From Oscillospiraceae bacterium (GTDB lineage Bacteria > Bacillota > Clostridia > Oscillospirales > Oscillospiraceae): 64,000 bases of DNA. Under the pieces are notes generated by a model, which was not told where the DNA came from, did not search any database, and was given only the letters and a program-made list of their open reading frames with translations. This document shows, piece after piece, positions 31,080-45,693 of the stretch (the stretch's first letter is position 1; each line of letters begins with the position of its first letter). Made by a program: the position numbers and the translations under genes. Location of the stretch: contig JAGAUY010000023.1 in NCBI GenBank assembly GCA_017620525.1, positions 45,397 to 109,396 on the forward strand. Direction: 5' to 3'.

Positions 31080-31781
31080 ATGGCATTCGTAGAGTTTCAG
31101 AACGTTGGAAAGACCTATCGCATGGGCGAGGTGGAGATCAATGCGCTCCACGACACGTCTTTTGAAATTGAAAAAGGCGAACTGGTGGTCATCGTCGGTC
31201 CCTCCGGTGCGGGTAAGACCACGCTTCTGAATATTCTGGGCGGCATGGATACGCTGTCTGAGGGAAAGGTGTTTCTCGATGGCCGGGAGATTTCCGGACT
31301 GAACCGCAAGCAGTTGACCCAGTACCGCCGTGATGACGTGGGGTTTGTGTTTCAGTTCTATAATCTCATCGGCAATCTGACGGCTCTCGAGAATGTGGAA
31401 CTGGCAAATCAGATCTGTAAGGAACCTCTGGACGCGGCAAAGGTGCTGCGGGATGTGGGACTGGAAGCGCGGCAGAAGAACTTCCCCAGCCAGCTTTCCG
31501 GCGGCGAGCAGCAGCGTGTGGCGATTGCCCGGGCCCTGGCCAAGAATCCGAAGCTGCTGCTGTGTGATGAACCCACCGGCGCGCTGGACTATCAGACCGG
31601 CAAGGCGATTTTGCAGCTGCTTCAGGATACTGGCAGAAAAACCGGTATGACCGTCATCATCATCACCCATAACGGTGCCCTGACTGCCATGGCAGACCGG
31701 GTGATCCGGGTCAGAAGCGGAACGGTAGCCTCTGTGACGCTCAATGAGTATCCTCAGAATATTCAGGAGATCGAATGGTAA
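31080..31781 (+). CDS. ABC transporter ATP-binding protein (MacB/LolD type)
   Basis: 233-residue nucleotide-binding subunit. The Walker A is GPSGAGKTT at residues 40-48, the Q-loop [17 protein letters not shown], the signature [15 protein letters not shown], and Walker [13 protein letters not shown] followed by the switch His in IITHNG. The arrangement fits the MacB/LolD/FtsE group, which energise FtsX-type permeases for mechanotransmission or extrusion. GGGGTGA lies 6 bases before the ATG. An extended -10-like TG-A-TACAAT is at 31041-31049. The stop overlaps the start of the permease gene, so the two proteins form one exporter. Confidence 0.95.
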
Positions 31782-34700
31782 TGAAAAAGAATGCGATGCG
31801 CAAAAACCTGCGTCAATCCATCCTGAAATCATTGGGACGATATATTGCCATCGTTGCCATCATTGCTCTGGGCGCCAGTATGTTTGTGGGTCTGCTGATG
31901 ACCAAATCGGACATGGTAGCCACCGGCCAGAAGTACATGGACGAAAAGAATATGTTCGACCTGCGCCTGCTGAGCAGCTACGGCTGGAGTCCGGACCAGG
32001 TGGAAGATGTTGCCCAAATGGAGGGCGTCATAGACGCTGAGGGCATGGTATACATGGACGTGATCGTCAAGGCCGGCGAAGCAGATGAGGAATCCGTCTA
32101 CCGGTTCTACTCCATGCCGAAGCAGGTCAACCAGCTGACGCTGCGCGGCGGCCGGATGCCGGAATCTCCCGATGAATGCCTGATTGACGGGTTCCACACC
32201 ACGGATGATATTCTGGGTAGCACTATCACCGTATCTGAAAACAATTCAGACGATACGCTGGATGCGATGGTCTACGGAACCTATACCGTGGTCGGCTATG
32301 TGTCCACCCCTCTGTATATGGACATGAACCGGGGCAATACCTCTGTTGGCAGCGGCAGCCTGACAAATTATCTGGTTATCCCCGATGATGGATTTGATGT
32401 GGATTACTTCACCGAGATCAATGTGACCATTGACGGTGAGTACGATATTTATACCGACGAATACAACAACGCCATGGAAGCCATGGCAGACCGGCTGGAG
32501 CCTCAGCTGGATCCGCTGGCGCAGGACCGGCTGGTCCAGGTGCGCGAGGATGCCACTCAGGCATACTATGACGGTATGCTGGAGTATTACGAGGGTGTCG
32601 AAGCATTCAACGAGGGCAGGGAAGAGGTGCTGCGGGAACTTGCTGACGCGCAGAAGAAGCTTCTCGATGGTGAAAAGGAAATAGAGGAGAATGAGAAGCT
32701 CCTGATCGACGGTGAGAAGCAGATCAATGAGGCCAAGCAGACGCTGAAGGAAAGCGAAAAGACACTTCTGGAATCAAAGAAGACCCTTGCAAGCACGAAA
32801 GCGTCGGCCTATAAGCAGATCTCCGATTCCACCACGTCTTTACTGGCGCAGTTTGAATCGCTGTCGGCAGATCTGACATCCCTTCAGGGGGAGATGACTG
32901 TGCTGCAGGCGAAGAGTCTGGAGCTGAATGCTGCGATCCTGGAACTGGAGACGGAACTGACGCTGATCGATTCCCAGATCAATATGACAAATTCCATGAT
33001 CGGAATCCTGGATACCAGCATCTCCACTTCCCAGCAGGCGCTGGATTTGGCAAAGCAGAATGGCGCGGATGAAGCGACCATTGCCCAGATGGAGCAGGAG
33101 CTTCAGCAGCTGCGCGCTTCCCGGGATTCGTATGCGCAGCAGCTTGCTCAGCAGCAGGCGGATCGGGCTGCTGTCGAAGCGGAGTTGGCACCATATTACG
33201 AGCAGCAGGCTGCGCTGGAAGCTGAGCAGGAGGCTTTGCAGAGTCAGATTTCCCAGCTTGAGGAATCCATCAGTTCTTTGACAGAGGATCTTCTGTCCCT
33301 GGCGGCCATGCAGGCAGTGATGGATGCAGAGTTTGAATCCGCTGACGCGCAGCTGGAAGCGGGTGAAGCTCAGATCGAGGCTGCCTATGTGGAGCTGGAG
33401 CTGCGGGAGCAGGAGCTGATCGACGGCAAGGCTGCGCTGGAAGAAGCAAAGCTTGAGCTGGAAGACGGCTGGAAAGAATACCGTGAGGGTAAGGCCGAAG
33501 CCGAACAGGAGCTGGCCGACGCGGAAGCGGAACTGGCCGAAGCCGAACAGAAGCTGGCTGATGCCCTGGAGACCATTCAGGGCATGACTGAGAATTCTGT
33601 TTTTGTGCTGGACAGAACCAGCAATCTGGGTTACAACTCCCTGGACAGTGCATCGGATATTGTTCAGGGTGTTTCCAGGGTATTCCCGGCATTTTTCCTG
33701 CTGATTGCGGCGTTGGTGTGCATTACCACCATGACCCGAATGATCGACGAGGAGCGTACCCAGATCGGTACGCTCAAGGCGCTTGGATACAGCAATAGCG
33801 CCATCATCAGCAAATACCTGTTCTATGCGGGCAGCGGTGCAGTGGTTGGCTGCGGTCTGGGTGTCATCGTGGGCAGCATTGTGTTCCCCACGATCCTCTG
33901 GCAGGCATATAAGATCATGCTGTATATCACTCCCGGCATCGTGCTGCGGTTTAACTGGATCCTCTGTTTTGCCGTGGTCGCGGCCTATACCATTGTGATG
34001 CTTCTGGTCACCTGGTACTGCTGCCGCAGAGCGCTGCAGGAGGAGCCTGCGGAGCTGATCCGCCCCAAATCTCCGGAAGCGGGCAAGAAGATATTCCTGG
34101 AATATTTCCCCTTCTGGCATAAGATCAGCTTCCTGAATAAAGTTACCATCCGTAATATTTTCCGCTACCGACAGCGCTTTGCCATGATGATGGTGGGCAT
34201 CGGCGGCTGTACGGCGCTGCTTCTGACGGGATTTGGCCTGCGTGATTCCATTGTTAACATTGTGGATTTCCAGTTTGATGAAGTGACGGTTTATGATATG
34301 CAGGTCTACTTCACGGATGGACAGACCGAGGCCGAGAAAGCGGAATTCCGCCAGGATGTGGAAGGAAGCGTCAGCGATGTAATGTTTTATCACCAGGAGA
34401 GTGTGGAACTGGATTTCGACAATCAGATGCGTGAGATCTACATGATGGCTGCGGACAGCGAGATACAGCGGTTTGTGGATTTCCACAGCGGAGATCAGCC
34501 TCTGGATATGCCCGGTGTTAACGAAGTGCTGCTGACGGTGGGTGTGGCGGAGGCCATGGGCATCGACATAGGCGACCGTGTCACCATGCGCAGCGCGGAT
34601 ATGGAAGTGCTGGATCTGACAGTTTCCGGTATTTATGACAACAATGTTTACAACTATGCGGTTGTGATCCCGGAGACCATCGAAACGCAGTGGGGGCAGG

Positions 34701-35248
34701 CGCCGGATGAGCAGATGGCGCTGGTCCATGTTGCGCAGGATCGGAGTTCTCATGAGGTCAGTGCCATGATCTCCGGATTGTCCGATGTGATGAATGTTTC
34801 CGTCAGCGAAGACCTGGCCGGAATGGTCGGCTCCATGATGGAGGCGCTGGATCTGGTGGTTTGGGTCATCGTGTTCTGCGCGGGACTGCTGGCGGTGACT
34901 GTGCTTTATAATTTGACCAATATCAATATCAATGAACGCATCCGGGAGATCGCGACCATCAAGGTTCTTGGCTTCAATGCCACAGAGACGGCAGCTTATG
35001 TGTTCAAGGAGAATCTGGCTCTGACGGTGATTGGCGCCGTGGTGGGTCTGCCGCTGGGTTATCTGCTGCTGGTATTTGTCATGAGTCAGATCAAGATCGA
35101 CTTCTGCTGGTTCCAGGCCCGAGCCTCGGCACTGTCATGTATGCTGGCGCTGGTGCTGACACTGTTGTCGTCACTGGTGGTGGATGTTATTTTCTACCAC
35201 AAGCTGGACCGCATCAATATGGCAGAAGCGCTGAAATCCGTAGAGTAA
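31775..35248 (+). CDS. FtsX-like ABC permease with a long extracytoplasmic coiled coil
   Basis: 1157-residue permease. A membrane helix at about 21-44 is followed by an extracellular domain. A coiled coil of about 330 residues (roughly 271-604) follows, dense in Glu, Lys, Gln, Ala and Leu, with repeats such as ELADAQKKLLDGEKEIEE and QELADAEAELAEAEQKL. An FtsX domain comes next (about 632-760, containing TMIDEERTQIGTLKALGYS-like sequence), then a second extracellular domain and a final FtsX domain (about 1030-1157, with ATIKVLGFNATETAAYV). ATG 31775 and ATG 31781 are both possible starts; AGGAG fits the first. The long coil may reach across the cell wall to a partner such as a hydrolase, by analogy with FtsX-type mechanotransmission. 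Confidence 0.9.
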   Translation: MVMKKNAMRKNLRQSILKSLGRYIAIVAIIALGASMFVGLLMTKSDMVATGQKYMDEKNMFDLRLLSSYGWSPDQVEDVAQMEGVIDAEGMVYMDVIVKAGEADEESVYRFYSMPKQVNQLTLRGGRMPESPDECLIDGFHTTDDILGSTITVSENNSDDTLDAMVYGTYTVVGYVSTPLYMDMNRGNTSVGSGSLTNYLVIPDDGFDVDYFTEINVTIDGEYDIYTDEYNNAMEAMADRLEPQLDPLAQDRLVQVREDATQAYYDGMLEYYEGVEAFNEGREEVLRELADAQKKLLDGEKEIEENEKLLIDGEKQINEAKQTLKESEKTLLESKKTLASTKASAYKQISDSTTSLLAQFESLSADLTSLQGEMTVLQAKSLELNAAILELETELTLIDSQINMTNSMIGILDTSISTSQQALDLAKQNGADEATIAQMEQELQQLRASRDSYAQQLAQQQADRAAVEAELAPYYEQQAALEAEQEALQSQISQLEESISSLTEDLLSLAAMQAVMDAEFESADAQLEAGEAQIEAAYVELELREQELIDGKAALEEAKLELEDGWKEYREGKAEAEQELADAEAELAEAEQKLADALETIQGMTENSVFVLDRTSNLGYNSLDSASDIVQGVSRVFPAFFLLIAALVCITTMTRMIDEERTQIGTLKALGYSNSAIISKYLFYAGSGAVVGCGLGVIVGSIVFPTILWQAYKIMLYITPGIVLRFNWILCFAVVAAYTIVMLLVTWYCCRRALQEEPAELIRPKSPEAGKKIFLEYFPFWHKISFLNKVTIRNIFRYRQRFAMMMVGIGGCTALLLTGFGLRDSIVNIVDFQFDEVTVYDMQVYFTDGQTEAEKAEFRQDVEGSVSDVMFYHQESVELDFDNQMREIYMMAADSEIQRFVDFHSGDQPLDMPGVNEVLLTVGVAEAMGIDIGDRVTMRSADMEVLDLTVSGIYDNNVYNYAVVIPETIETQWGQAPDEQMALVHVAQDRSSHEVSAMISGLSDVMNVSVSEDLAGMVGSMMEALDLVVWVIVFCAGLLAVTVLYNLTNININERIREIATIKVLGFNATETAAYVFKENLALTVIGAVVGLPLGYLLLVFVMSQIKIDFCWFQARASALSCMLALVLTLLSSLVVDVIFYHKLDRINMAEALKSVE

Positions 35249-35287: not shown

Positions 35288-35719
35288 TTATGCATAATGC
35301 TCTTTCAGATAGAGAATCGCTTCCCGGTAGCCCTCAAAGCCGTGCCCCTTGATGGTGTGGACACAGGCCATACCCGCATAGGAAATCTGCCGGAAGGACT
35401 CTCTGGCATCCACGTCGGAGATGTGGACCTCCACCGCCGGGATGGACACTGCCTTCAGCGCATCCAGAATGGCAACGGAGGTATGGGTATAGGCAGCCGG
35501 GTTGATGACGATACCGTCAACGCGGCCGTACGCCCACTGGATCTTGTCTACAAGATCGCCTTCATGATTGGACTGGTACTGCTCGATATCCAGTCCTTCC
35601 TCCCGGGCGGTTTTATCGATCAGAGCCAGAAGATCGGCGAAGGTGTTTTTGCCGTAGATACCCGGCTCACGGATACCCAGCATATTCAAATTGGGACCAT
35701 TGATGACCAGGATTTTCAT
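35288..35719 (-). CDS. aroQ: 3-dehydroquinate dehydratase, type II
   Basis: Third shikimate-pathway step, 3-dehydroquinate to 3-dehydroshikimate, by the dodecameric type II enzyme. The 143-residue protein has GPNLNMLGIREPGIYG (catalytic Tyr22 and the mobile-loop Arg), QSNHEGDLVDKIQWA, INPAAYTHTSVAI, and VEVHISDVDARESFR with the catalytic His. It is the last gene of the aromatic operon and its ATG overlaps the stop of the fused aroE/K gene by four bases. Confidence 0.97.
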   Translation of the reverse strand: MKILVINGPNLNMLGIREPGIYGKNTFADLLALIDKTAREEGLDIEQYQSNHEGDLVDKIQWAYGRVDGIVINPAAYTHTSVAILDALKAVSIPAVEVHISDVDARESFRQISYAGMACVHTIKGHGFEGYREAILYLKEHYA

Positions 35720-36930
35720 GGCAGTACCTCCAGGATCTGTGTGGCGGTGCCTTCGGCATCGCCATTGTTATCAATTTGGAAGTCAGCAAAGGCCTCGTAG
35801 AGAGGCTTTCGCACTTTATACATATCAGAAAGCCGGTTCGCCTGGGACAGGGGCCGTCCGTCGGTGGGAAGCTTCTCAAGATCCCGATTCAGGCAGAAGA
35901 TCGTACCGTTCTGATGGAGCAGAGGATAATTGCGTGCCTTTGTCACGCAGCCGCCGCCGGTGGCGATGACCAGTCCGGACTGCCTGCCCAGTTCTTTCAG
36001 GACTTCTGTTTCCAGCCTCCGGAAGCCTTCTTCTCCCTCTGCGGCAAAGATGTCCGGGATGGATCTTCCGTTTTTTTCCACCAGGTATGCATCTGCATCG
36101 ACAAACCGCTTGCCCAGCCTTTCTGCCAGCAGTCTACCGACTGTGGATTTGCCGCATCCGGGCATACCGATGAGAACGATGTTCTCCATTTGCCGCCGCA
36201 GGGAGGTGTGAATGGGCAGGATCTTTTCGTCGGAAATGGACGAACCGGTGAACCATTCGGCGCTTTCCTTTGCCTGCGCCACCAGCATCAGCAGACCGTT
36301 CATGGTCACGAGGCCCTTGTTCTGTGCATCCAGAAGGATCTGCGTGCGGGCAGGATTGTAGATTACATCCAGAACGCCTTCCAGGCGGGGGAACAGTTCC
36401 AGATCAACGGGGGAAACGCCGACCTTCGGATACATTCCCACAGGCGTTGCGTTGACGATCAGTGCGGCATCCGCGTGAAGATGCAGATTATTGTAGCAAT
36501 TCGATCCGTTTCTGGAAATGACGACCACTTCCGCGCCCAGCTCTTCCAGCACGGCAACGGCCGTATTGGATGCTCCGCCGGAGCCGAGAACCAAAGCTTT
36601 CTTACCGGCAACGTCCAGTCCGCTGGTACGGACCATGGTCAGGAAACCGAAATAGTCCGTATTATGACCGATCAGTTTGCCATCCCGGCGGATGATGGTG
36701 TTCACTGCCCCCAGACGCTTCGCCCGGGGAGACAGTTCATCCAGGAAGGAAATGACGTCCTTTTTATAGGGGACGGTTACATTCAGACCCTGAAAATCAC
36801 CGTTTCGCAGGAAATCTTCCAGTTCCTCCGGCTCTTTTTCGAAAAGCTCATAGGAATAGTCCGCCAGCCGGGTGTGGATCTGAGGGGAGTAACTGTGGCC
36901 CAGCTTCCGCCCGAGCAGTCCGCACTTCAT
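35716..36930 (-). CDS. aroE/aroK: fused shikimate dehydrogenase - shikimate kinase
   Basis: A 404-residue bifunctional protein. Residues 1 to about 240 are shikimate dehydrogenase: GHSYSP (Ser13/Ser15 bind shikimate), catalytic Lys56 in VTVPYKKDV, Asp92 in GHNTDYFGF, the NADP loop LVLGSGGASNTAV, and NATPVGMYP. Residues 248-404 are shikimate kinase: Walker A GMPGCGKST at 255-263, DADAYLVEK, and ATGGGCVTK. The frame continues without a break, with a short linker (LPIHTSLRRQ), so this is a true fusion of consecutive or near-consecutive steps. The start is MKCGLLGRK, whose ATG shares one base with the pheA stop (TGATG). Such fusions are known in some Clostridia. Confidence 0.95.
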   Translation of the reverse strand: MKCGLLGRKLGHSYSPQIHTRLADYSYELFEKEPEELEDFLRNGDFQGLNVTVPYKKDVISFLDELSPRAKRLGAVNTIIRRDGKLIGHNTDYFGFLTMVRTSGLDVAGKKALVLGSGGASNTAVAVLEELGAEVVVISRNGSNCYNNLHLHADAALIVNATPVGMYPKVGVSPVDLELFPRLEGVLDVIYNPARTQILLDAQNKGLVTMNGLLMLVAQAKESAEWFTGSSISDEKILPIHTSLRRQMENIVLIGMPGCGKSTVGRLLAERLGKRFVDADAYLVEKNGRSIPDIFAAEGEEGFRRLETEVLKELGRQSGLVIATGGGCVTKARNYPLLHQNGTIFCLNRDLEKLPTDGRPLSQANRLSDMYKVRKPLYEAFADFQIDNNGDAEGTATQILEVLP

Positions 36931-38072
36931 CACACGACCTCGCAGTAGCTGCCCAGATACTTGAATTCCTCGCACAGCTCGTCCAGTTCGCACATCAGCT
37001 GGATGAATTCTTCGGAATAGATGGAAGTTTCCAGGTCGAAATAGAACATGAATTCAAAGTCCCGGTCGGGAATGGGACGGGATTCCAGCTTGGTGACATT
37101 GATGCCCAGAGTGTAAAGGCGAGCCAGGACCTTATACAGGGAACCGGGACGATGGGGCAGGACCATCATGATGCTGGTCTTGTCGGAACCGGGGTAAATC
37201 TCCATGTTCTTGCTGATGCAGATAAAGCGGGTCCGGTTATTTCCCTTGTCCTGAATGGAGGCTGCCAGGGTATTCAGACTGTACAGTTCGGCGCAGCTGC
37301 GGCTGCTGAGGGCAGCCACATCCGTGCGGCCGGACTTGGAGACCATCTCTGCGGCCACGGCGGTATTTTCAACGGGGATAACCTTCACACCGGGCATGGT
37401 CTTCAGAAACTCGGAGCACTGGTTGATGGCCTGCTCATGGGAGAAGATCTCCTTGATGCCGTCCTTGGTGGCACCGGGGTTGGCCAGCAGATTGTGATCC
37501 ACCTTCAGGCGGAATGTGCGCACAATGGAGAAATTGTGCTTGATCATCAGATCATAGACCTTCTTGACAGAACCTGCCGTGGAGTTTTCCAGGGGCAGGA
37601 TGCCGTACTGGCAGAGACCCTTTTCAATGGCGCCGAACACACCTTCGAAGTTCTTGAAGTACATGATGAAAGGGGATTTGAACATTTTCTCGCAGGCGAT
37701 CTGGGAATATGCGCCCTCCACACCCTGGCAGGCCACCATGGGGGCCTGGGGGAACAGCCTGGGAGTCTTTTCAATCGCCTCGGTGATCTCGTGGTACAGA
37801 GGTGTCAGCGTGTCAGAGCGCTTGGACTGGTAGCTGCGGCTCAGTTCGAAAAGCATGGAGTACAGCACACGGGTGTAGTTGGCCATTTCGGGGCCAGCCT
37901 TTTCGGCTACATCCTGCAGCTTTTCCCGTTCACGCACGGGCATCAGGATGGGCAGATTGTTTTCCTTCTTGTAGTCGGCGATCTGAGCGGCAACGTCCAT
38001 ACGCTGTCCGAAGAGCTTTACCAGCTGGTCATCGATCTGGTCGATTTGTCCGCGAAGTTCGTTGAGATCCAT
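36930..38072 (-). CDS. pheA: bifunctional chorismate mutase / prephenate dehydratase
   Basis: 380 residues in three parts. A chorismate mutase domain (about 1-90) contains LRGQIDQIDDQLVKLFGQRM. A prephenate dehydratase domain (about 108-285) has YSQIACEKMF, GILPLENSTAGSV and the NNRTRF motif. An ACT regulatory domain (about 295-375) has HRPGSLYKVLARLYTLG and the ESRP motif that binds phenylalanine. It makes phenylpyruvate from chorismate and is expected to be feedback-inhibited by Phe. AGGAGGA lies 9 bases before the ATG. It follows aroC by one base. Confidence 0.96.
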   Translation of the reverse strand: MDLNELRGQIDQIDDQLVKLFGQRMDVAAQIADYKKENNLPILMPVREREKLQDVAEKAGPEMANYTRVLYSMLFELSRSYQSKRSDTLTPLYHEITEAIEKTPRLFPQAPMVACQGVEGAYSQIACEKMFKSPFIMYFKNFEGVFGAIEKGLCQYGILPLENSTAGSVKKVYDLMIKHNFSIVRTFRLKVDHNLLANPGATKDGIKEIFSHEQAINQCSEFLKTMPGVKVIPVENTAVAAEMVSKSGRTDVAALSSRSCAELYSLNTLAASIQDKGNNRTRFICISKNMEIYPGSDKTSIMMVLPHRPGSLYKVLARLYTLGINVTKLESRPIPDRDFEFMFYFDLETSIYSEEFIQLMCELDELCEEFKYLGSYCEVV

Positions 38073-38073
38073 G

Positions 38074-39165
38074 TTAATTCTTCCTCCTGTTGGTCTGGGT
38101 GTTGCCCAGAATCATGTCATAAATTGCGATAGCCGCGGCGGCTTCCATGACCGGTACGGCCCGGGGAACGATGCAGGGGTCGTGGCGGCCCTTGATTTCA
38201 AGAGTTTGTTCTTCCATGCGGGAGAGGGAAACGCTTTTCTGAGGGCAGGAGATGGAGGGAGTCGCCTTTATGGCGGCGGTAAAGATCTCCGGCATACCGT
38301 TGGTAATGCCGCCCTGAATACCACCTGCATTATTGGTCTGGGTGACGATTTTTCCGTCCAGAATGGTAAAGTCATCGTTACTCTGGCTGCCGGGAAGGCA
38401 GGCACAGTCGAAACCGATGCCGAATTCCACACCCTTGACAGCCGGAATACCATAGACAATCTGGGCAATCCGGCTTTCCACACCGCCGAACATGGGTTCA
38501 CCGATACCGGCCGGAAGGCCGGTGACTGCGCACTCAATGATACCGCCCACGCTGTCACCGGCGGATCTTACCTGTGCGATGCAATCGCGCATGGCTGCGC
38601 CGGCTTCCGGATCCAGAACAGGGAAATCGGAATGGATGGATTCAAGTTCCGGATCGATTGGGTCAAAGTAGGTGTCACCGCATTCACCGATGGCAAGGAT
38701 ATGGGCGCCGATGCAGATGCCCATCTCTTCCAGCCACTGCTTGCAAAGGCCTCCAGCGATGCACAGGGGAGCGGTCAGTCTGCCGGAGAAATGTCCGCCT
38801 CCGGCAGCATCCTGGAAACCGCCGTATTTGATATTTGCGGTGTAGTCCGCATGGCCGGGGCGGGGGCAGTCGAGGAGATTCCTGTAGTCTCCGGAGCGGG
38901 TATTTTTGTTGTGAATGACTGCGGCGATGGGAGCACCGCAGGTATAGCCGTCGAGAATTCCGGCCAGAAATTCCGGCCGGTCCTCTTCCCGGCGGGGGGT
39001 GGACCAGTCATTTTGACCCGGTGCCCGGCGGTTCAGAAAAATCTGAAGTTTCTCCGTATCAACGGGAAGCCCTGCCGGAATACCGTCCAGGGTCATACCG
39101 ATGCCGGCGCCGTGGGACTGACCGAAAATGGAGAGTTTTAAGTTTTCACCGTAGGTACTGCTCAT
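38074..39165 (-). CDS. aroC: chorismate synthase
   Basis: Last common step, EPSP to chorismate, needing reduced FMN. The 363-residue protein opens with STYGENLKLSIFGQSHGAGI, has RRAPGQNDWSTPRREEDR, RPGHADYTANIKYGG, and the flavin-binding GHFSGRLTAPL. It ends NNAGGIQGGITNGMPE and RHDPCIVPRAVPVMEA, all family hallmarks. The start overlaps the end of aroA by 20 bases, with AGGAGG inside aroA. Confidence 0.97.
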   Translation of the reverse strand: MSSTYGENLKLSIFGQSHGAGIGMTLDGIPAGLPVDTEKLQIFLNRRAPGQNDWSTPRREEDRPEFLAGILDGYTCGAPIAAVIHNKNTRSGDYRNLLDCPRPGHADYTANIKYGGFQDAAGGGHFSGRLTAPLCIAGGLCKQWLEEMGICIGAHILAIGECGDTYFDPIDPELESIHSDFPVLDPEAGAAMRDCIAQVRSAGDSVGGIIECAVTGLPAGIGEPMFGGVESRIAQIVYGIPAVKGVEFGIGFDCACLPGSQSNDDFTILDGKIVTQTNNAGGIQGGITNGMPEIFTAAIKATPSISCPQKSVSLSRMEEQTLEIKGRHDPCIVPRAVPVMEAAAAIAIYDMILGNTQTNRRKN

Positions 39166-40312
39166 AATTACCTCCTAACCGGCGATATTCGTCCCAGAAT
39201 TTGGGATAGGACTTCTGCACTGCTTCCGCACCCAGGATGGTAACCGGACCGCTGCAGACGGTGGCGGCAATGGCGGCGGACATGGCGATGCGGTGATCGT
39301 TCTGGGCATGTACAGTGCCGCCGGTATATCCGGTGCCCCAGACGGTCAGGGTATCTTCCGTTGCTTCCGCCTTGCCCCCCAGAGCCTCAATCATGGCGAT
39401 GGTGGATGCCACACGGTCGGATTCCTTGATGCGCAGTCTCTGAATGTTGTGGAAGGCTGCGCCGGACTTTGCACCGGCAGTGATGGCAAGAATAGGGACC
39501 AGATCGGGGATGTCTGCGGCATCCACGGTGGTGAACTGTTTCAGCAGCGGCAGGATCCGCGCTGCTGCCCGGTCTCCCTGTGGTGACTCCGGATTCAGAT
39601 TCTCCACTTCAATGTCATTTCCCAGTGCTTTGGCAGCCAGAAAAAATGCGCCGTTGCTCCAGTCACCTTCCACCTGGATGGCGCCGGGGGAGTGGTATTT
39701 TGGAGCGCAGAACAGTTCCATGGCCCTGCGGGTCATGTCAATGTAAGGAGCGGATTCGATTTTGCCTGTGACCTCCAGGTGGCTTTTCCCCGGGATCAGA
39801 GACTGGGCGAAAAGAAGTCCTGTGATAAACTGGCTGGAAACGCTGCCGCTGATGGAATAAGCACCGCTTTTCAGTTTGCCCTGACAGCGGATGGTATCCG
39901 GAGAGGGACGGGTCAGGGTACAACCCATCCGCTCCATCTCCTCCCACAGAGGGGACAGAGGGCGCTGAGGCAGTCTTCCTTCCATGCGGAAGGTGGCGTT
40001 TACACCAAGTGCGCCGGCGATGGGCAGCATAAAGCGCAGGGTAGAGCCGCTTTCGCAGCAGTTCAGCGTGGCAGATACAGGAACTTTTCGGATGGGTTCC
40101 GCGCGGTAGCCGGTTTCAGTTCTTGTGATCACGGCTCCCAGTGCGTTCAGGCAGTCAGCGGTAGCTTCGATATCCCGGTTGGTGTCGGGACAGTGGAGCT
40201 GCGTGGGTGCATCTGCAAAGGCGGCACAGATCAGAAGCCTGTGCGCCTGGGATTTGGAAGGGATGGCGGTTACGGTGCCGCTGAGCCTTCCGGGGGTTAT
40301 TGTGATGTCCAT
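39146..40312 (-). CDS. aroA: 3-phosphoshikimate 1-carboxyvinyltransferase (EPSP synthase)
   Basis: Transfers enolpyruvate from PEP to shikimate-3-phosphate. The 388-residue product is about 40 residues shorter than the typical enzyme, but the active-site blocks are present: IPSKSQAHRLLICAAF, NCCESGSTLRFMLPIAGAL, SSQFITGLLFA, EGDWSNGAFFLAA, RLRIKESDRV and NDHRIAMS. The start MDITITPGRL is one base after the aroB stop; the longer frame to 40384 lies inside aroB. The Gly-rich LPIAGAL region differs from the LGNAGTA class I signature, so glyphosate sensitivity class is uncertain by eye. Confidence 0.95.
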   Translation of the reverse strand: MDITITPGRLSGTVTAIPSKSQAHRLLICAAFADAPTQLHCPDTNRDIEATADCLNALGAVITRTETGYRAEPIRKVPVSATLNCCESGSTLRFMLPIAGALGVNATFRMEGRLPQRPLSPLWEEMERMGCTLTRPSPDTIRCQGKLKSGAYSISGSVSSQFITGLLFAQSLIPGKSHLEVTGKIESAPYIDMTRRAMELFCAPKYHSPGAIQVEGDWSNGAFFLAAKALGNDIEVENLNPESPQGDRAAARILPLLKQFTTVDAADIPDLVPILAITAGAKSGAAFHNIQRLRIKESDRVASTIAMIEALGGKAEATEDTLTVWGTGYTGGTVHAQNDHRIAMSAAIAATVCSGPVTILGAEAVQKSYPKFWDEYRRLGGNYEQYLR

Positions 40313-40313
40313 A

Positions 40314-41366
40314 TCAAAGACCTGCCTTGATAAAGGATTGGATTTCGCTGACGGGGGTGGGAGCGATGCGGCAGAAGCCGACACGCTCGGGGATGATGAG
40401 ATTCACGGTGCCGCCGCTGCGTTTTTTGTCCGACAGGGCGGAACGGTAAAGGTCTTCGGCGCTGTAATCACAGCTCATGGGAAGACCGAATGTTTCAAGA
40501 ACCTCGAGAACCGTATTTCGGGTTTCTTCGCTGCAGATTCCGCAGACAGCTGCGGCACGGGTGACGATGGCCGTGCCGATGGCCACAGCACTGCCGTGGG
40601 ATATTCCGAAATGGGACTGTGCCTCGATACCGTGACCGACGGTGTGTCCCAGATTCAGGCGCATTCTGGCACCGGTGTCGAATTCATCCTCGGCGACCAC
40701 ATCCCGTTTCAATTCCACACAGCGGGTAATAACTGCTTCCCGGTCAAATTCCATTCCGCGGGTCCGAAGATGCTCAAACAGGTCAGGATCGTAGAGAATT
40801 CCATATTTGATGACCTCGGCGCAGCCGTCCCGGAAAATATCCGGGGGCAGGGTGTTGAGGGTATCAATGTCGCACAGTACCAGGCTTGGCTGATAGAATG
40901 CGCCGCAGAGGTTTTTGCCCGCGGGAAGATCAATGGCTGTCTTGCCGCCGACGGAGGAATCCACCGCAGCAAGCAAAGTTGTGGGCACCTGAATGAACCG
41001 GATTCCCCGAAGATAAGTGGCGGCGGCGAATCCCGCAAGATCTCCGACGACACCGCCGCCCAGGGCGATGATCAAATCGCTTCGGGTCAGCTGGTTTTCT
41101 GCCAGAAAGTTGACGAGCTGCAGATAGGTCTCACCGCTTTTGCTGGCTTCGCCGGCAGGAAATACAAAGCTGACGGTTTCAAAGCCTGCGCCGTTCATAC
41201 TCTTTTCGGCAACGCCGCCGTAAAGAGGCCACACATTGGTTTCACTGATAATGGCAGCCTTTTTGGCTTTCGTCAGCTTCCGTGCCGCTTCGCCAAGACC
41301 CGGAAGCAGACCGGAGCCGATCTGAACTTCATAATTTCTGGACGCGGTTACGGGAACGGTTCTCAT
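40314..41366 (-). CDS. aroB: 3-dehydroquinate synthase
   Basis: Second shikimate step, DAHP to 3-dehydroquinate, zinc and NAD dependent. The 350-residue protein contains ALGGGVVGDLAGFAAATYLRG, PTTLLAAVDSSVGGKTAIDL, and the zinc region RMRLNLGHTVGHGIE with the metal-binding histidines. The annotated start MRTVPVTASRNYEV overlaps the tyrA stop by four bases (ATGA). An upstream frame of 54 codons is rejected because it lies wholly inside tyrA and is unrelated to AroB. Confidence 0.96.
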   Translation of the reverse strand: MRTVPVTASRNYEVQIGSGLLPGLGEAARKLTKAKKAAIISETNVWPLYGGVAEKSMNGAGFETVSFVFPAGEASKSGETYLQLVNFLAENQLTRSDLIIALGGGVVGDLAGFAAATYLRGIRFIQVPTTLLAAVDSSVGGKTAIDLPAGKNLCGAFYQPSLVLCDIDTLNTLPPDIFRDGCAEVIKYGILYDPDLFEHLRTRGMEFDREAVITRCVELKRDVVAEDEFDTGARMRLNLGHTVGHGIEAQSHFGISHGSAVAIGTAIVTRAAAVCGICSEETRNTVLEVLETFGLPMSCDYSAEDLYRSALSDKKRSGGTVNLIIPERVGFCRIAPTPVSEIQSFIKAGL

Positions 41367-42193
41367 CCGTCCACCTCTTCCTTGCGGCGCTTGCCTTCTT
41401 CCAGCAGCGCGGTGAGCGTGTCCATGTCTTTCCGGGCAATGGCATCCCGGTAAGCGCTCAGACTGTCGATGTAGAAATCCAGTTCGGAGAGGACGTTGTC
41501 CCTGTTTTCCATAAACAGTTCTGCCCACATGGGGGCATTCAGCCAGGCAACTCTGGTCAGATCCTTATAGCTGCCGGCAGAGAAACCTTTGTGATTCAGT
41601 GCAGTGGGGGACTTGATGAAGGCATTGCTGAGAATGTGAGGCATCTGAGAGGTAAAGGCGATCATCTTGTCATGGTCTTCCGCGGTAGTGACCGAGAAGG
41701 AGCCGAACTCACAGGGAGCCAGTGCGTTCTTGCAGCGCTCCAGCAGATCCATATCGTCGAATCGGGGCGGCACCAGCACCATGGGCTGCCCCTGATAGAG
41801 GGTGGCCCTGCTGTATTTGAAGCCGGAGAACTGGGAGCCTGCCATGGGATGGCCGCCCACGAAGGTAAAGCCATGTGCTTCCGCCAGGGGGAAACAACGC
41901 TCACAGATCTCCCGCTTGATGCCGCAGCAATCGATGACGAGGGCATCCTTCGATATCAGATGGGCATTCCGCTCCAGCCATGCGGCGCTGCCGCCGGGGT
42001 AGATGGCGAGCAAAATCAGATCGCACTGGGGGATGGTTTCTTCGTTCAGTTTGCCGTGAACGGCACCGGCCAGCATGGCAAACGAGAGCATACTCTCGTT
42101 TCGCTGAATGGCATAAACGGTGTGGCCGGCAATGGCATATGCCCGGGCCAGGCTGCCGCCGATGAGACCCAGACCCAGGATGCCGACGGTCAT
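41363..42193 (-). CDS. tyrA: prephenate dehydrogenase
   Basis: NAD(P)-dependent oxidative decarboxylation of prephenate to 4-hydroxyphenylpyruvate, the Tyr branch. The 276-residue product begins with the Rossmann loop GILGLGLIGGSLARAYA and has VIDCCGIKREI and GGHPMAGSQFSGF (catalytic His). No ACT domain is present at the C-terminus, unlike many Firmicute TyrA proteins, so any feedback control must act on the catalytic domain or at the RNA level. Its start overlaps the aroF stop by four bases (ATGA). Confidence 0.94.
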   Translation of the reverse strand: MTVGILGLGLIGGSLARAYAIAGHTVYAIQRNESMLSFAMLAGAVHGKLNEETIPQCDLILLAIYPGGSAAWLERNAHLISKDALVIDCCGIKREICERCFPLAEAHGFTFVGGHPMAGSQFSGFKYSRATLYQGQPMVLVPPRFDDMDLLERCKNALAPCEFGSFSVTTAEDHDKMIAFTSQMPHILSNAFIKSPTALNHKGFSAGSYKDLTRVAWLNAPMWAELFMENRDNVLSELDFYIDSLSAYRDAIARKDMDTLTALLEEGKRRKEEVDG

Positions 42194-43191
42194 AAGATGG
42201 CCTCCCGCACGCGGCGGATGCGGCGGTTCAGATCGTCAAACTGCGCGGGAGTCAGGGACTGAGCGCCGTCGCACAGGGCGCAGGCGGGATTGTTGTGGAC
42301 TTCCACCATGATGCCGTCGGCACCGGCAGCGGTGGCGGCAACTGCCATGGAGGGGATCAGCTTGATCTTGCCGGTGGCGTGGCTGGGGTCAATGACCACG
42401 GGCAGATGGCTCAGTTCATGCAGGGCGGGAACAGCGGACAGATCCAGGGTGTTTCTGGTGTAGGTCTCGAAAGTACGGATGCCGCGCTCGCAGAGGATAA
42501 CGTTCTCGTTACCCTCGCTCATGATGTACTCCGCGCTCATCAGAAGCTCCTGGAAGGTATTGGCCAGGCCGCGCTTGAGCAGAACGGGGGTCTTGGATTT
42601 GCCGATTTCTTTCAGAAGATCGAAATTCTGCATGTTTCTGGCACCGATCTGAATGATGTCCACATCCGCAAACAGGTCCAGATCGTTGATGTTCATCAGT
42701 TCCGTGATAATGGGAAGACCGGTTGCTTTCTTGGCCTTCAGCAGCAGCTTGATGCCCTCGCCCTTCATACCCTGGAAGGCATAGGGGGAGGTGCGGGGCT
42801 TGAATGCGCCGCCGCGGAGGATTTCCGCACCGGATTCCTTAACGGCAGTGGCGACCTCAATGATCTGCTCTTCAGACTCGACGGAGCAGGGACCTGCGAT
42901 AACGGCGAAATAGCCGCCGCCGATCCTGACGTTGCCTACTTCAATGATGGTGTCTTTGGGATGGAATTTCCGGTTGGCCTGCTTGAAGGGTTCGGAAACC
43001 CGTTTGACGGTCTCCACGATCTCAAGGCTCTTCAGCAGCTCCATATCCACCCGGCTGGTGTCGCCGATGAGGCCTAGGATGGTGATTTCCTGACCTTCGG
43101 ATACATGGACGTCCAGATTCATTCTCTTGAGCCAGTCGATCAGGTGCTGGGTCTGGTCGGGGGTGGTACCATGCTTCAATACTGCGATCAT
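42190..43191 (-). CDS. aroF: 3-deoxy-7-phosphoheptulonate synthase (DAHP synthase, type I-beta)
   Basis: First committed step, PEP plus erythrose-4-phosphate to DAHP. 333 residues: an N-terminal ferredoxin-like regulatory domain (about 1-70, [18 protein letters not shown]) like that of Thermotoga DAHP synthase, then the TIM barrel with [60 protein letters not shown] and IDPSHATGK. The regulatory domain suggests feedback inhibition by Tyr and/or Phe. The start ATG 43191 has GGAGA upstream. It leads the eight-gene aromatic operon, just behind an attenuator hairpin. Confidence 0.96.
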
Positions 43192-43213
43192 ACGATCATC
43201 TCCTAACAAAAAT

Positions 43214-43246
43214 AGCGCTGCACCGAGGCGATCTCGTTGCAGCGCT
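43214..43246 (-). terminator. attenuator terminator upstream of aroF
   Basis: On the minus strand AGCGCTGCA pairs with TGCAGCGCT (inner GAG/CTC), followed by ATTTTTG. It lies 22 bases before the aroF start and about 50 bases behind the leader peptide stop, so it would stop transcription before aroF unless prevented. Confidence 0.85.
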
Positions 43247-43295
43247 TGAAAATACCTTTTAAGCTCCTGTAAATTTACTGCAGCACAAATCGCTA

Positions 43296-43358
43296 TTACT
43301 TTTTACGGGTAAAAAAGTAATAGTAGCTAAAGTAAAACTTTGCAGCAGTGTTGACCAT
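43296..43358 (-). CDS. Phe/Tyr-rich leader peptide of the aromatic operon
   Basis: A 20-codon reading frame on the minus strand, with GGGAGG at good spacing before its ATG. It encodes MVNTAAK followed by FYFSYYYFFTR and KK. Eight of nine consecutive codons apart from one Ser are Phe or Tyr. It lies downstream of a consensus promoter and upstream of an intrinsic terminator. This is the classic design for ribosome-mediated attenuation: when Phe- or Tyr-tRNA is scarce the ribosome stalls in the run, changes the leader RNA fold, and lets polymerase pass into aroF. It is too short for ordinary gene finding. Function is inferred from architecture, not homology. Confidence 0.85.
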   Translation of the reverse strand: MVNTAAKFYFSYYYFFTRKK

Positions 43359-43390
43359 AAGAAAGGCCTCCCGGTACAGTAGCTGTGGAC

Positions 43391-43419
43391 ATTGTACCAC
43401 GGTACGCGGAAAAATGCAA
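43391..43419 (-). promoter_or_regulatory. promoter of the aromatic operon
   Basis: On the minus strand TTGCAT, 17-base spacer, TACAAT, giving a start near 43384, about 26 bases ahead of the leader peptide ATG. Confidence 0.8.
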
Positions 43420-43551
43420 GAGGGAATCGGGCTGAATGCGATATAATTTATCAGTTTCTGTCTGTCTCTTGCAAAATTCGACTATTTGGCATCATACCCG
43501 CTTTATTGGACCGAATCTATGTTAGGATATCCAAAAACAGGAGGTATCACC

Positions 43552-45693
43552 ATGGATTATCTGAAGGAACTGAACAAGGATCAATACGAAGCGGCGACGA
43601 CCACGGAGGGGTTCATCCGGGTGGTTGCAGGCGCCGGTTCCGGAAAGACCAAGACTCTGACAGCGCGGTTTATGTATCTGGTGGAGGCTCTGGGGATTTC
43701 CACCGCCAATATTCTATGCGTAACCTTCACCAACAAGGCTGCTGCGGAGATGAAAAAGCGTATCCGCCGACAGCTTCCGGATCAGGATCTGGGCCGGATC
43801 ACCACATTCCATGGCTTCTGCGTGGGTCTGCTGAAAGAGGACTGTCATGTGGTGCAGTATCCAACTACCTTCATCGTCCTGGACGAAGAGGACAAGGAAG
43901 CCATGCTGCGCACGGTCTTCGAGGATCTGGGGATCACGGGCAGGGATATGACCATCAAGGACGCGGTGGATTATATCGGCTGGCGCAAGGGCGGCAGGGG
44001 ATATGTGAAAACCCTCATCGATCCCAACATCGACCATATTCTGAGCCTTGTGGAATCCGCCGGTACCCTGAAGGACAAAGTCATGTACCGCTATTTCTAT
44101 GAGCAGCGCAAATGCTACGGACTGGATTTTGACGATCTGGTATACTTCACGCTGTACATCCTGGAGCACGACAAATCCACCCGGGAAAAGTGGCAGCAGC
44201 GGCTGGAGTATGTCATGGTGGACGAGTTTCAGGACATCGACAAGGATCAGTATGCGCTGGCGGACATACTGTCCGGCTATCATAAAAATCTTTTCGTGGT
44301 GGGAGATCCGGATCAGACCATCTATACCTGGCGGGGGGCGGATGTGAAATTTATCCTGGAATTTGACAGCCGTCATGAAAATGTCAAAACCATCTATCTC
44401 AATACAAATTACCGCAGTGTTCCTCAGATCCTCTCTGCCTCCAATGCGCTCATCGACAAGAACCGGGAAAGACTGAAAAAGCAGCTGACACCCGTCCGGC
44501 CGGATGCCCGTAAGCCGCTGTATTGCCATGCCCGCACCTCCCAGCTGGAAGCGGACTGGATGACGGCCCAGATGCGCGCCATGCACGAAGCGGGACGTGC
44601 CTATTCGGATATGGGGGTGCTGTACCGGGCGCATTATGTCTCCCGGGCCGTGGAAGAATCGCTGATTCGCAATAAGATCCCCTACGTCCTCTATTCCGGT
44701 GTGGAATTTTACAAGCGTAAAGAGATCAAGGATATCCTTTGCTATCTGCGCATGGTTTATTCCGGTGATGATGTCAGCTTTCTTCGCACTGTCAATGAAC
44801 CCCGCCGGGGTGTGGGCCGGACGCGGATCCGGGCGCTGAAGGAATACGCGGAGCTGAACCGCTGTAATCTGTATGAAGCGTTGCTCATAAATCTGGAGAC
44901 GGACTTGTTCCGCAGAAGCCGTGCCCGGGAATACGTCCGGCTGATCGAAAAATACCGGGCTGTATTCGACGGGATGGATCTGACGGATCTGCTCAGCGGC
45001 GTTCTCAGCGAAAGCGGCTATGAGCAGATGCTGCGTTCCTCCGGAGAAGAGGACCGCCTGGACAACCTGGCGGAACTGAAACAGGCCATCTATGATTTTG
45101 AGCGCAAGGCAGGGGAGGAGGTAAGCCTCGGCAACTACCTGGACCATGCGGCTCTGTTTACAAACATGGACCAGACCGAACGGGCACAGGCGGTGAAGCT
45201 GATGACTGTCCACGCGGCCAAGGGTCTGGAATTCCCGGTGGTGTTTCTGTGTGGTCTGTCCGAGGGGATTTTTCCCGGCAAGCGGGCCAACACCCGGGAG
45301 AAACTGGAAGAGGAGCGCCGCCTGGCCTATGTTGCCTTCACCCGGGCCAGAGACAAACTGTTTCTGTCCGATGCGGCCGGAGTGAATTACGACGGTTCTT
45401 TCCGCTATCCCAGCCGGTTCCTGTTCAATGCGGAAAAGCAGAATCTGGACTATGTGACGGAGCTGGATCCGGATCTGGTGGAGGATGCCATGGAGCACAT
45501 CCGCAAGACCGAAGCTATGGAATCGCCGTCTCAAAAGCAGGATGCGGCAGTGGGAAAACGGGTCTGTCATCCGGTATTCGGAGAAGGAACTGTGATCGGA
45601 ATCCCAAGAGGCCAGGAGGGTTATATCATCCAGTTCGACAAAATGGTGACGCCCAGAACCTTCGGTCCTTCGGTAAAGCTGATATTCCTGTAA
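43552..45693 (+). CDS. pcrA: ATP-dependent DNA helicase, UvrD/PcrA family
   Basis: Superfamily 1A 3'-5' helicase for repair and rolling-circle-type processes, 713 residues. Motif I is AGAGSGKT (residues 26-33), Ia VTFTNKAAAEMKKRI, motif II VMVDEFQDID, III VVGDPDQTIYTWRGA, IV LNTNYRS, V TVHAAKGLEFPVVFL and VI EERRLAYVAFTRARDKL. The C-terminus has the Tudor-like tail VGKRVCHPVFGEGTVIGI typical of PcrA, which contacts RNA polymerase. The start MDYLKELNKDQYEA has CAGGAGG upstream; the longer frame to 43486 lacks a ribosome site. It diverges from the aromatic operon. Confidence 0.94.
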   Translation: MDYLKELNKDQYEAATTTEGFIRVVAGAGSGKTKTLTARFMYLVEALGISTANILCVTFTNKAAAEMKKRIRRQLPDQDLGRITTFHGFCVGLLKEDCHVVQYPTTFIVLDEEDKEAMLRTVFEDLGITGRDMTIKDAVDYIGWRKGGRGYVKTLIDPNIDHILSLVESAGTLKDKVMYRYFYEQRKCYGLDFDDLVYFTLYILEHDKSTREKWQQRLEYVMVDEFQDIDKDQYALADILSGYHKNLFVVGDPDQTIYTWRGADVKFILEFDSRHENVKTIYLNTNYRSVPQILSASNALIDKNRERLKKQLTPVRPDARKPLYCHARTSQLEADWMTAQMRAMHEAGRAYSDMGVLYRAHYVSRAVEESLIRNKIPYVLYSGVEFYKRKEIKDILCYLRMVYSGDDVSFLRTVNEPRRGVGRTRIRALKEYAELNRCNLYEALLINLETDLFRRSRAREYVRLIEKYRAVFDGMDLTDLLSGVLSESGYEQMLRSSGEEDRLDNLAELKQAIYDFERKAGEEVSLGNYLDHAALFTNMDQTERAQAVKLMTVHAAKGLEFPVVFLCGLSEGIFPGKRANTREKLEEERRLAYVAFTRARDKLFLSDAAGVNYDGSFRYPSRFLFNAEKQNLDYVTELDPDLVEDAMEHIRKTEAMESPSQKQDAAVGKRVCHPVFGEGTVIGIPRGQEGYIIQFDKMVTPRTFGPSVKLIFL

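Follow-up and report, generated by a model that had tools for sequence, protein, structure and literature searches.

The closest described systems are the pheA and pheST attenuators of enterobacteria (pheL), in which a short Phe-rich leader is joined to RNA segments capable of 1:2, 2:3 and 3:4 pairings and to an intrinsic terminator, with pheA under control. In classical attenuators the switch is kinetic. Aromatic genes of Firmicutes are usually described through T-boxes and TRAP, the latter controlling tryptophan genes in Bacillus.

Short aromatic leaders beside aromatic genes also appear in surveys of upstream ORFs. In work on five bacterial genomes, the Fig. 6b legend of Stav et al. (2019) lists two F/Y uORFs with shikimate metabolism genes (PMC6429828). 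The uORFC-13-1 motif is described as a uORF with Phe beside an intrinsic terminator, 5' of aroF in Acholeplasma, in a paper that also refers to a previous proposal of attenuation at E. coli aroF (PMC8632094). For other amino acids, accounts exist of His leader-peptide attenuators in Firmicutes, where T-boxes serve other species (PMC2965389, PMC9413887), of the His leaders of C. difficile and Bacillus (PMC4833913), and of a Leu-rich attenuator, supported by mutants, in the ilv-leu operon of S. aureus (PMC5794164). The trpB motif (SRC-39-1) is presented as a riboswitch candidate, classic attenuation being not excluded by its authors (PMC11109978). A search of the open-licence PMC literature (figures and supplements aside) turned up no paper in which a Phe/Tyr attenuator is described for the Oscillospirales aromatic operon.

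The locus described here lies on the minus strand of the window, by which we mean the whole stretch of 64,000 nucleotides of Oscillospiraceae DNA that was analysed. It very probably encodes a ribosome-mediated transcription attenuator that would read charged tRNA-Phe and charged tRNA-Tyr together, ahead of a shikimate-Phe-Tyr operon. A sequence-only reading of the window had proposed such a combined Phe/Tyr switch before the whole aromatic operon; by computational inference the proposal is borne out by orthologous leaders, by the fit and covariation of antiterminator and terminator arms, by conserved F/Y identity of codons that lie outside the stem and by operon context, and on this basis attenuation is the best supported account. 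The leader, its codon content, the alternative pairings with their arm fit, the terminator and the gene order are shown by sequence or by comparison (Table 1).

Table 1. The leader and the aromatic operon behind it (window positions).
Feature	Position	Strand	Basis or detail
Sigma-70-type promoter TTGCAT-17-TACAAT	43391..43419	-	TTGCAT 43419-43414, TACAAT 43396-43391
Ribosome-binding site GGGAGG of leader ORF	43367..43372	-	Sequence
Leader peptide ORF MVNTAAKFYFSYYYFFTRKK, 20 codons + TAA	43296..43358	-	ATG 43358, TAA 43298-43296
Region 1 (codons 4-6)	43341..43349	-	Paired with 43285-43277 in no-ribosome MFE
12-bp hairpin, Tyr/Phe codons 43323-43312 : Lys-Lys-stop codons 43304-43293	43293..43323	-	Leader fold
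Region 2, antiterminator 5' arm	43277..43293	-	Arm fit, pair counts, window folding
Region 3, antiterminator 3' arm, common to terminator 5' arm and loop	43228..43243	-	Arm fit, pair counts, window folding
Intrinsic terminator, hairpin 43246-43214 and five T 43212-43208	43208..43246	-	Sequence, fold, relatives
Ribosome-binding site AGGAG of aroF	43200..43204	-	aroF ATG at 43191
DAHP synthase (called aroF here), first operon gene	42190..43191	-	NF006421, 491.8 bits (cut-off 335)
Prephenate dehydrogenase (tyrA)	41363..42193	-	Best NF006307, E 3.1e-42, below curated cut-off
aroB, 3-dehydroquinate synthase	40314..41528	-	TIGR01357 above cut-off, match from residue 66
aroA, EPSP synthase	39146..40384	-	TIGR01356, E 2.9e-74, below curated cut-off
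aroC, chorismate synthase	38074..39165	-	TIGR00033 above cut-off
pheA, chorismate mutase-prephenate dehydratase	36930..38072	-	NF008865 and NF007910, both below curated cut-offs
Fused shikimate dehydrogenase (N)-shikimate kinase (C)	35716..36993	-	aroE models within 18-262, kinase models within 264-425, below cut-offs
aroQ, type II 3-dehydroquinate dehydratase	35288..35719	-	TIGR01088 above cut-off

The promoter, ribosome site, 20-codon frame, terminator and aroF ribosome site are all found at the minus-strand positions given by the earlier reading, and the CTGCAG at 43283-43278 that it had suggested as an antiterminator falls within a longer arm (43293-43277) pairing with 43243-43228. A frame of 20 codons is short enough for gene callers to usually skip. 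A simple consensus scanner listed neither the leader promoter nor the leader terminator: the promoter matches 8 of 12 consensus positions and was missed at the scanner's limit of 9, and the terminator hairpin has a bulge, which the stem rule probably disallows. Promoters with at least 9 of 12 positions occur in 31 of 37 upstream regions of the genus (the window itself having 8), compared to 12% of mononucleotide shuffles. The density of aromatic codons also departs from chance: when the 350-nt upstream region was dinucleotide-shuffled 2000 times, no shuffle reached the 8 F/Y in 10 residues seen in the window, and 12 reached 6. The leader RNA has a minimum free energy (MFE) of -56 kcal/mol (z = -3.4; one of 200 shuffles equally stable), the corresponding fold being a nested 1:2 structure that includes the 12-bp hairpin of Tyr/Phe with Lys-Lys-stop codons, followed by the terminator. 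The AAA:TTT pairing in this hairpin may explain why most leaders in the genus end in KK-stop.

Eight contiguous aromatic genes follow 3' of the leader; taken as ORFs, neighbours overlap or stand 1 nt apart. The codon run of the leader matches their products: the operon makes Phe and Tyr. Curated NCBIfam cut-offs are passed by DAHP synthase, aroB, aroC and aroQ; the other four genes match the appropriate families strongly by E-value, though below the cut-offs. The aroB ORF as called opens with GTG, and its true start is probably further in. The divergent neighbour (43552-45690, plus strand) is a UvrD-type helicase gene. At 31775-35248 (plus strand) lies the gene of a 1157-aa protein with SMC-like coiled-coil matches over residues 233-596, then LolC/E- and ADOP-type permease matches.

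We infer transcription start, leader translation, stalling, kinetics and regulatory outcome as follows. RNA polymerase would start just 3' of the -10 box and a ribosome would begin the leader peptide. With Phe or Tyr scarce, the ribosome would stall in FYFSYYYFF (codons 8-16), covering region 1 and leaving region 2 (43293-43277) free to pair with region 3 (43243-43228) while region 4 is still to be transcribed; with 2:3 paired, no terminator would form and the eight-gene operon would be transcribed. With Phe and Tyr plentiful, the ribosome would reach the stop codon (43298-43296) and cover region 2, such that regions 3 and 4 would form the terminator. Where there is no ribosome, regions 1 and 2 could pair, and the terminator would be the equilibrium state.

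In 37 leaders of the genus, region 2 has the consensus GCGATTTGTGCTGC, and its pairing partner, region 3, reads GCCGCACGAATTGC or a variant of it. Folding for mutually exclusive structures, the check named by the sequence-only reading, gives a positive answer: the computed 2:3 antiterminator and the terminator exclude each other through their common region 3. Arm permutations, pair counts and column shuffles – all of which ignore the relatedness of the leaders – were used to assess these pairings. Native 2:3 arms average -15.7 compared to -13.4 when permuted (30 distinct pairs) and native 3:4 arms -18.8 compared to -15.6 (34 distinct pairs), with none of 5000 permutations as good in either case; the arms of the 1:2 hairpin prefer their own partner weakly (39 of 5000 permutations as good). 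Hairpin and terminator together are 95.3% paired, with changes on both sides in 10 of 23 pairs, above all slid controls: for the 12-bp Tyr/Phe hairpin 95.6% of cells are paired in the 37 leaders and both sides change in three of 13 pairs, and for the terminator both sides change in seven of ten. The 2:3 antiterminator is 89.2% paired, with both-side changes in five of 12 pairs, and likewise exceeds all slid controls; against column shuffles the result is weaker, the number of pairs with both-side changes being reached by 7 of 500, the number of cells by 21 and the number of pair types by 254.

The duplex of regions 1 and 2 is stronger than in shuffles (-11.2 vs. -7.75 over 36 distinct genus pairs; none of 200 shuffles as good), and in the same 36 pairs coevolution of the two regions was not found (1024 of 5000 permutations as good). 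Beyond the genus, the 2:3 duplex averages -17.5 across 54 loci whose terminator is compact, compared to -11.9 for shuffles; the duplex reaches p <=0.05 in 31 of these loci and fails to do so in 23.

The effect of ribosome position was modelled by masking the RNA up to a point 13 nt beyond the first base of the A-site codon, with transcription stopped at the end of region 3. Averaged over the F/Y codons, the probability of 2:3 pairing has a median of 0.92 in the 37 leaders; at the stop codon the median drops to 0.04, and 27 leaders have values below 0.2. When no ribosome is placed, the median becomes 0.43 and just 16 of 37 leaders fall below 0.2, and thus equilibrium folding does not show the protection by region 1 well. 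For the leader of the window, the strict measure of 2:3 pairing takes values of 0.54 when the ribosome sits on F/Y codons, 0.51 when there is none and 0.0 when it is at the stop: pairing is about equal for codons 1 to 18, the model separates the stop codon only, and suboptimal folds reveal competing registers. A ribosome placed at F16 leaves free RNA whose minimum-energy fold is the full antiterminator (-17.9 kcal/mol). Once the full leader is made, equilibrium favours the terminator wherever the ribosome stands (0.97 for the window and a median of 0.98 for the 37 leaders), and so the antitermination switch must be kinetic.

Related aroF genes were collected from 60 relatives, 49 of which gave a match (30 loci plus 20 further places were fetched), and from the best 80 loci among the listed matches of a genome-contig scan; the resulting 130 loci, less eight duplicates, gave 122 unique upstream regions. 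The leader score is the count of F/Y in 10 residues of a short frame (loose, at least 5; strong, at least 6). Frames with a loose score occur in 101 of the 122 regions; their rate is 7.9% in shuffles and 2.2% in random segments from the same contigs. For strong scores the figures are 93 regions, 1.1% and 0.4%. Some few of the 101 (L125, for example) are probably due to chance. A terminator-like hairpin (<= -9 kcal/mol, T-rich tail) lies 3' of the frame in 98 of the 101, compared to 26 with one shuffle per stretch, and hairpins of <= -15 kcal/mol in 92 compared to 10. With L125 left out, 100 leaders remain, of which 99 begin with ATG, 82 have an SD-like GGAG, AGGA, GAGG or AAGG at most 20 nt from the chosen start, 98 contain at least two F and at least two Y, and nine contain W. 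A Phe/Tyr run, a ribosome site and a terminator recur in many related Clostridia, a comparison that the earlier reading had proposed. Frames rich in L were also seen (25 of 122, compared to four with one shuffle each); they may be another frame of the same codons. The 21 regions scoring below 5 include two with aromatic leaders recognizable by eye (L047, L103), a truncated one (L100) and one whose start is uncertain (L138).

Where at least 8 kb of downstream sequence was available (50 loci), the 10 kb 3' of aroF contain tyrA in 44, aroB in 42, aroA in 44, aroC in 43, pheA in 41, aroE-K in 39 and aroQ in 32. Loci with a leader score below 5, such as L054, L073, L096 and L110, have aroF with few or no other operon genes; L069, L080, L103 and L106 combine a low score with much of the operon, and L102 has a leader but tyrA as its only other operon gene.

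Counted from the Tyr-Phe junction, three codon columns that lie outside the hairpin (-6, -5 and -4) encode F or Y in 78%, 84% and 100% of the 37 leaders and use TTT, TTC, TAT and TAC; columns -3 and -2 encode F or Y in 46% and 65%. Since columns -6 to -4 remain aromatic while their codons vary, the pattern points to selection on aromatic identity rather than on a single peptide or a single RNA stem. Peptide-specific arrest – the aromatic nascent peptide stalling the ribosome, as in TnaC, or sensing a free ligand instead of charged tRNA – would fit the similarity of the leader peptide within the genus, and a large aromatic run could perhaps slow translation; but a given codon column can have F in one leader and Y in another and, despite their common F/Y content, non-genus peptides reveal no fixed motif, making this explanation quite improbable.

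A covariance model was trained on the 37 leaders. Of 61 genomes of the genus, 49 have one full copy (additional weak rows are the opposite strand of the same hairpin) and the other 12, some of which are incomplete, have no match. In the order the model matches 47 of 295 genomes. The gene directly 3' of the match is aroF in 33 of 34 returned loci, seven of which are from the same genus, several being in the training set; of the 27 non-genus loci, 26 have aroF downstream and the other precedes a TrpB-like gene. A further 20 weaker or unresolved places have aroF at four, a TrpB-like gene at three (one being the exception among the 34, refetched) and no assignment at 13, which may be chance matches. 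A partial weak match (L177, G217:C16; E 3e-4) lies 0.5 kb before an ORF with no aromatic leader seen there; the start of this ORF suggests a possible tyrosyl-tRNA synthetase.

Beyond the family, 12 of 16 aroF regions from the rest of the order score at least 5 and nine at least 6. Regions from the class and the phylum were chosen as aroF matches starting near residue 1 (the best ones for other classes) and are not random samples; on this footing, 26 of 59 regions in class Clostridia score at least 6 (shuffles 1.9%) and one has a T-box, compared to three of 40 (shuffles 0.6%) in other classes of the phylum, where seven of the 40 regions have a T-box in the sense of aroF. For strong leaders, the class compared to the other classes gives Fisher p = 8.7e-5.

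The sequence-only reading had named, as one case against itself, orthologous leaders that keep the terminator and lose the peptide. Such leaders exist in two genomes of the same genus: L121 (G034) and L132 (G010) have a terminator hairpin before aroF, short 5' leaders and no F/Y frame. Both belong to divergent aroF genes (products 69% and 64% identical, respectively, to that of the window aroF), and we read them as losses or replacements, not as refutation. These two genomes, like the role of TRAP in Bacillus, also speak for control of the terminator by a TRAP-like RNA-binding protein, or by pausing alone, with the leader serving just to couple translation; the match between codon content and pathway products argues against it, and we think it less probable even than peptide arrest.

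None of 4227 Rfam families reaches its gathering score in the window, and at that level a T-box (RF00230) or other riboswitch and the Rfam amino-acid leaders (Phe, Trp, His, Leu, Thr) were rejected there. The possibility that a T-box, or another riboswitch binding tRNA or a metabolite, acts here with the ORF incidental is raised by the relatives: all 40 that were scanned contain T-box matches (37 over the family cut-off), and T-boxes lie directly 5' of other aroF copies in L133 and L136. Against this stand the result for the window and the retention of ORF start, SD and F/Y identity in relatives, and we give the possibility next to no weight. T-boxes precede some related aroF copies (L133, L136, L248, L259, L274, L279, L280, L284, L285 and L288); the Rfam scan of low-score regions covered 19 of the 21 (all but L106 and L110). 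None of the T-box-bearing aroF loci reaches a leader score of 5, and a T-box at aroF in relatives may mean that one sensing system has been exchanged for another before this gene. Equally negligible is a small protein with a job of its own, the hairpin being a plain terminator or processing site: the frame has an SD and is conserved within the genus, but among relatives its length and sequence vary, whereas its aromatic content and the RNA pairing are retained; of the 27 non-genus matches to the model, 26 precede aroF and the other a TrpB-like gene.

Three homologous leaders with Trp codons, KYWRYFNFTFYGF or KYWYFYF, stand before a gene for a TrpB-like PLP enzyme in L173, L174 and L191 (NF009057, E 9e-206 in L173 and 6.5e-204 in L191; L174 was judged by its similar start). 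These leaders run from 134 in L173, from 111 in L174 (reverse strand) and from 152 in L191 (genomes G039, G088 and G133). The terminator is followed in L173 and L174 by another short frame, MRIILYWRWRVRAVNK, which may be a tandem Trp leader. Within the genus of the window, trpE was found in none of 17 genomes (G000-G016; many incomplete, seven at least 90% complete) and trpD in none of eight (many likewise incomplete), suggesting that Trp synthesis has been lost; Phe and Tyr may thus be the only amino-acid products of the chorismate route in this genus. Of 71 genomes searched for trpD, W occurs in the aroF leader of six of 23 trpD-positive and three of 42 trpD-negative genomes, a trend only (Fisher p = 0.057). 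From this test G037, G084 and G461 were dropped for a leader score below 6 (G461 is trpD-positive and has W), G039, G088 and G133 entered without an aroF leader, and G414 entered by the second of its two aroF copies only. Since W is absent from the leader in 17 of the 23 trp-positive genomes, missing Trp synthesis does not by itself explain a leader with F and Y only.

A wider reading, which we consider evenly balanced between true and false, is that a single ancient family of aromatic attenuators, instead of T-boxes, controls the shikimate-Phe-Tyr operon in a large part of class Clostridia. Its RNA core and peptide would have been retuned to the pathway – mostly Phe/Tyr before aroF, Trp added before TrpB-like genes – and it would act as a two-input OR gate, with either shortage opening the pathway. 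A leader-peptide attenuator as frequent as this (strong leaders in 26 of 59 class regions; 12 of 16 at the looser score in the rest of the order) would change the default expectation for gut Clostridia. The two-amino-acid sensor is testable by simple codon swaps.

The candidate attenuator resembles enterobacterial pheL in its short aromatic leader, its predicted pairings, its terminator and the presence of pheA among the genes; it differs in combining Phe with Tyr, in its place before DAHP synthase and a shikimate-Phe-Tyr operon, in its occurrence in Clostridia and in having no Rfam match at gathering level. The F/Y uORFs of Stav et al. share both amino acids and pathway, a comparison made by description only, and may include relatives of the window leader (PMC6429828). 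Also by description, uORFC-13-1 is set apart: its 24 representatives come from Acholeplasma and environmental sequences, and the motif is characterized by at least one Phe codon, with no mixed F/Y run (PMC8632094). The His attenuators of Firmicutes are likewise regular leader-peptide attenuation, but for histidine, with hisS/hisZ genes and his operons (PMC2965389, PMC9413887), and S. aureus ilv-leu likewise joins leader peptide, terminator and antiterminator in a Firmicute, but for branched-chain amino acids (PMC5794164). The trpB motif, as described, has a terminator and an antiterminator arm, occurs in Firmicutes and Fusobacteria and lies occasionally 5' of trpB; with the leaders before TrpB-like genes it was compared by description (PMC11109978). 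The points of note are the two-amino-acid input, the breadth in Clostridia, and a position in which other classes more often carry T-boxes. As far as these sources describe them, F/Y or Phe uORFs at shikimate genes were already noted in 2019 and 2021, and the kind of attenuator is itself known; what would be new here, although overlap with the 2019 uORFs is possible, is a two-amino-acid Phe/Tyr leader of the aromatic operon in Clostridia.
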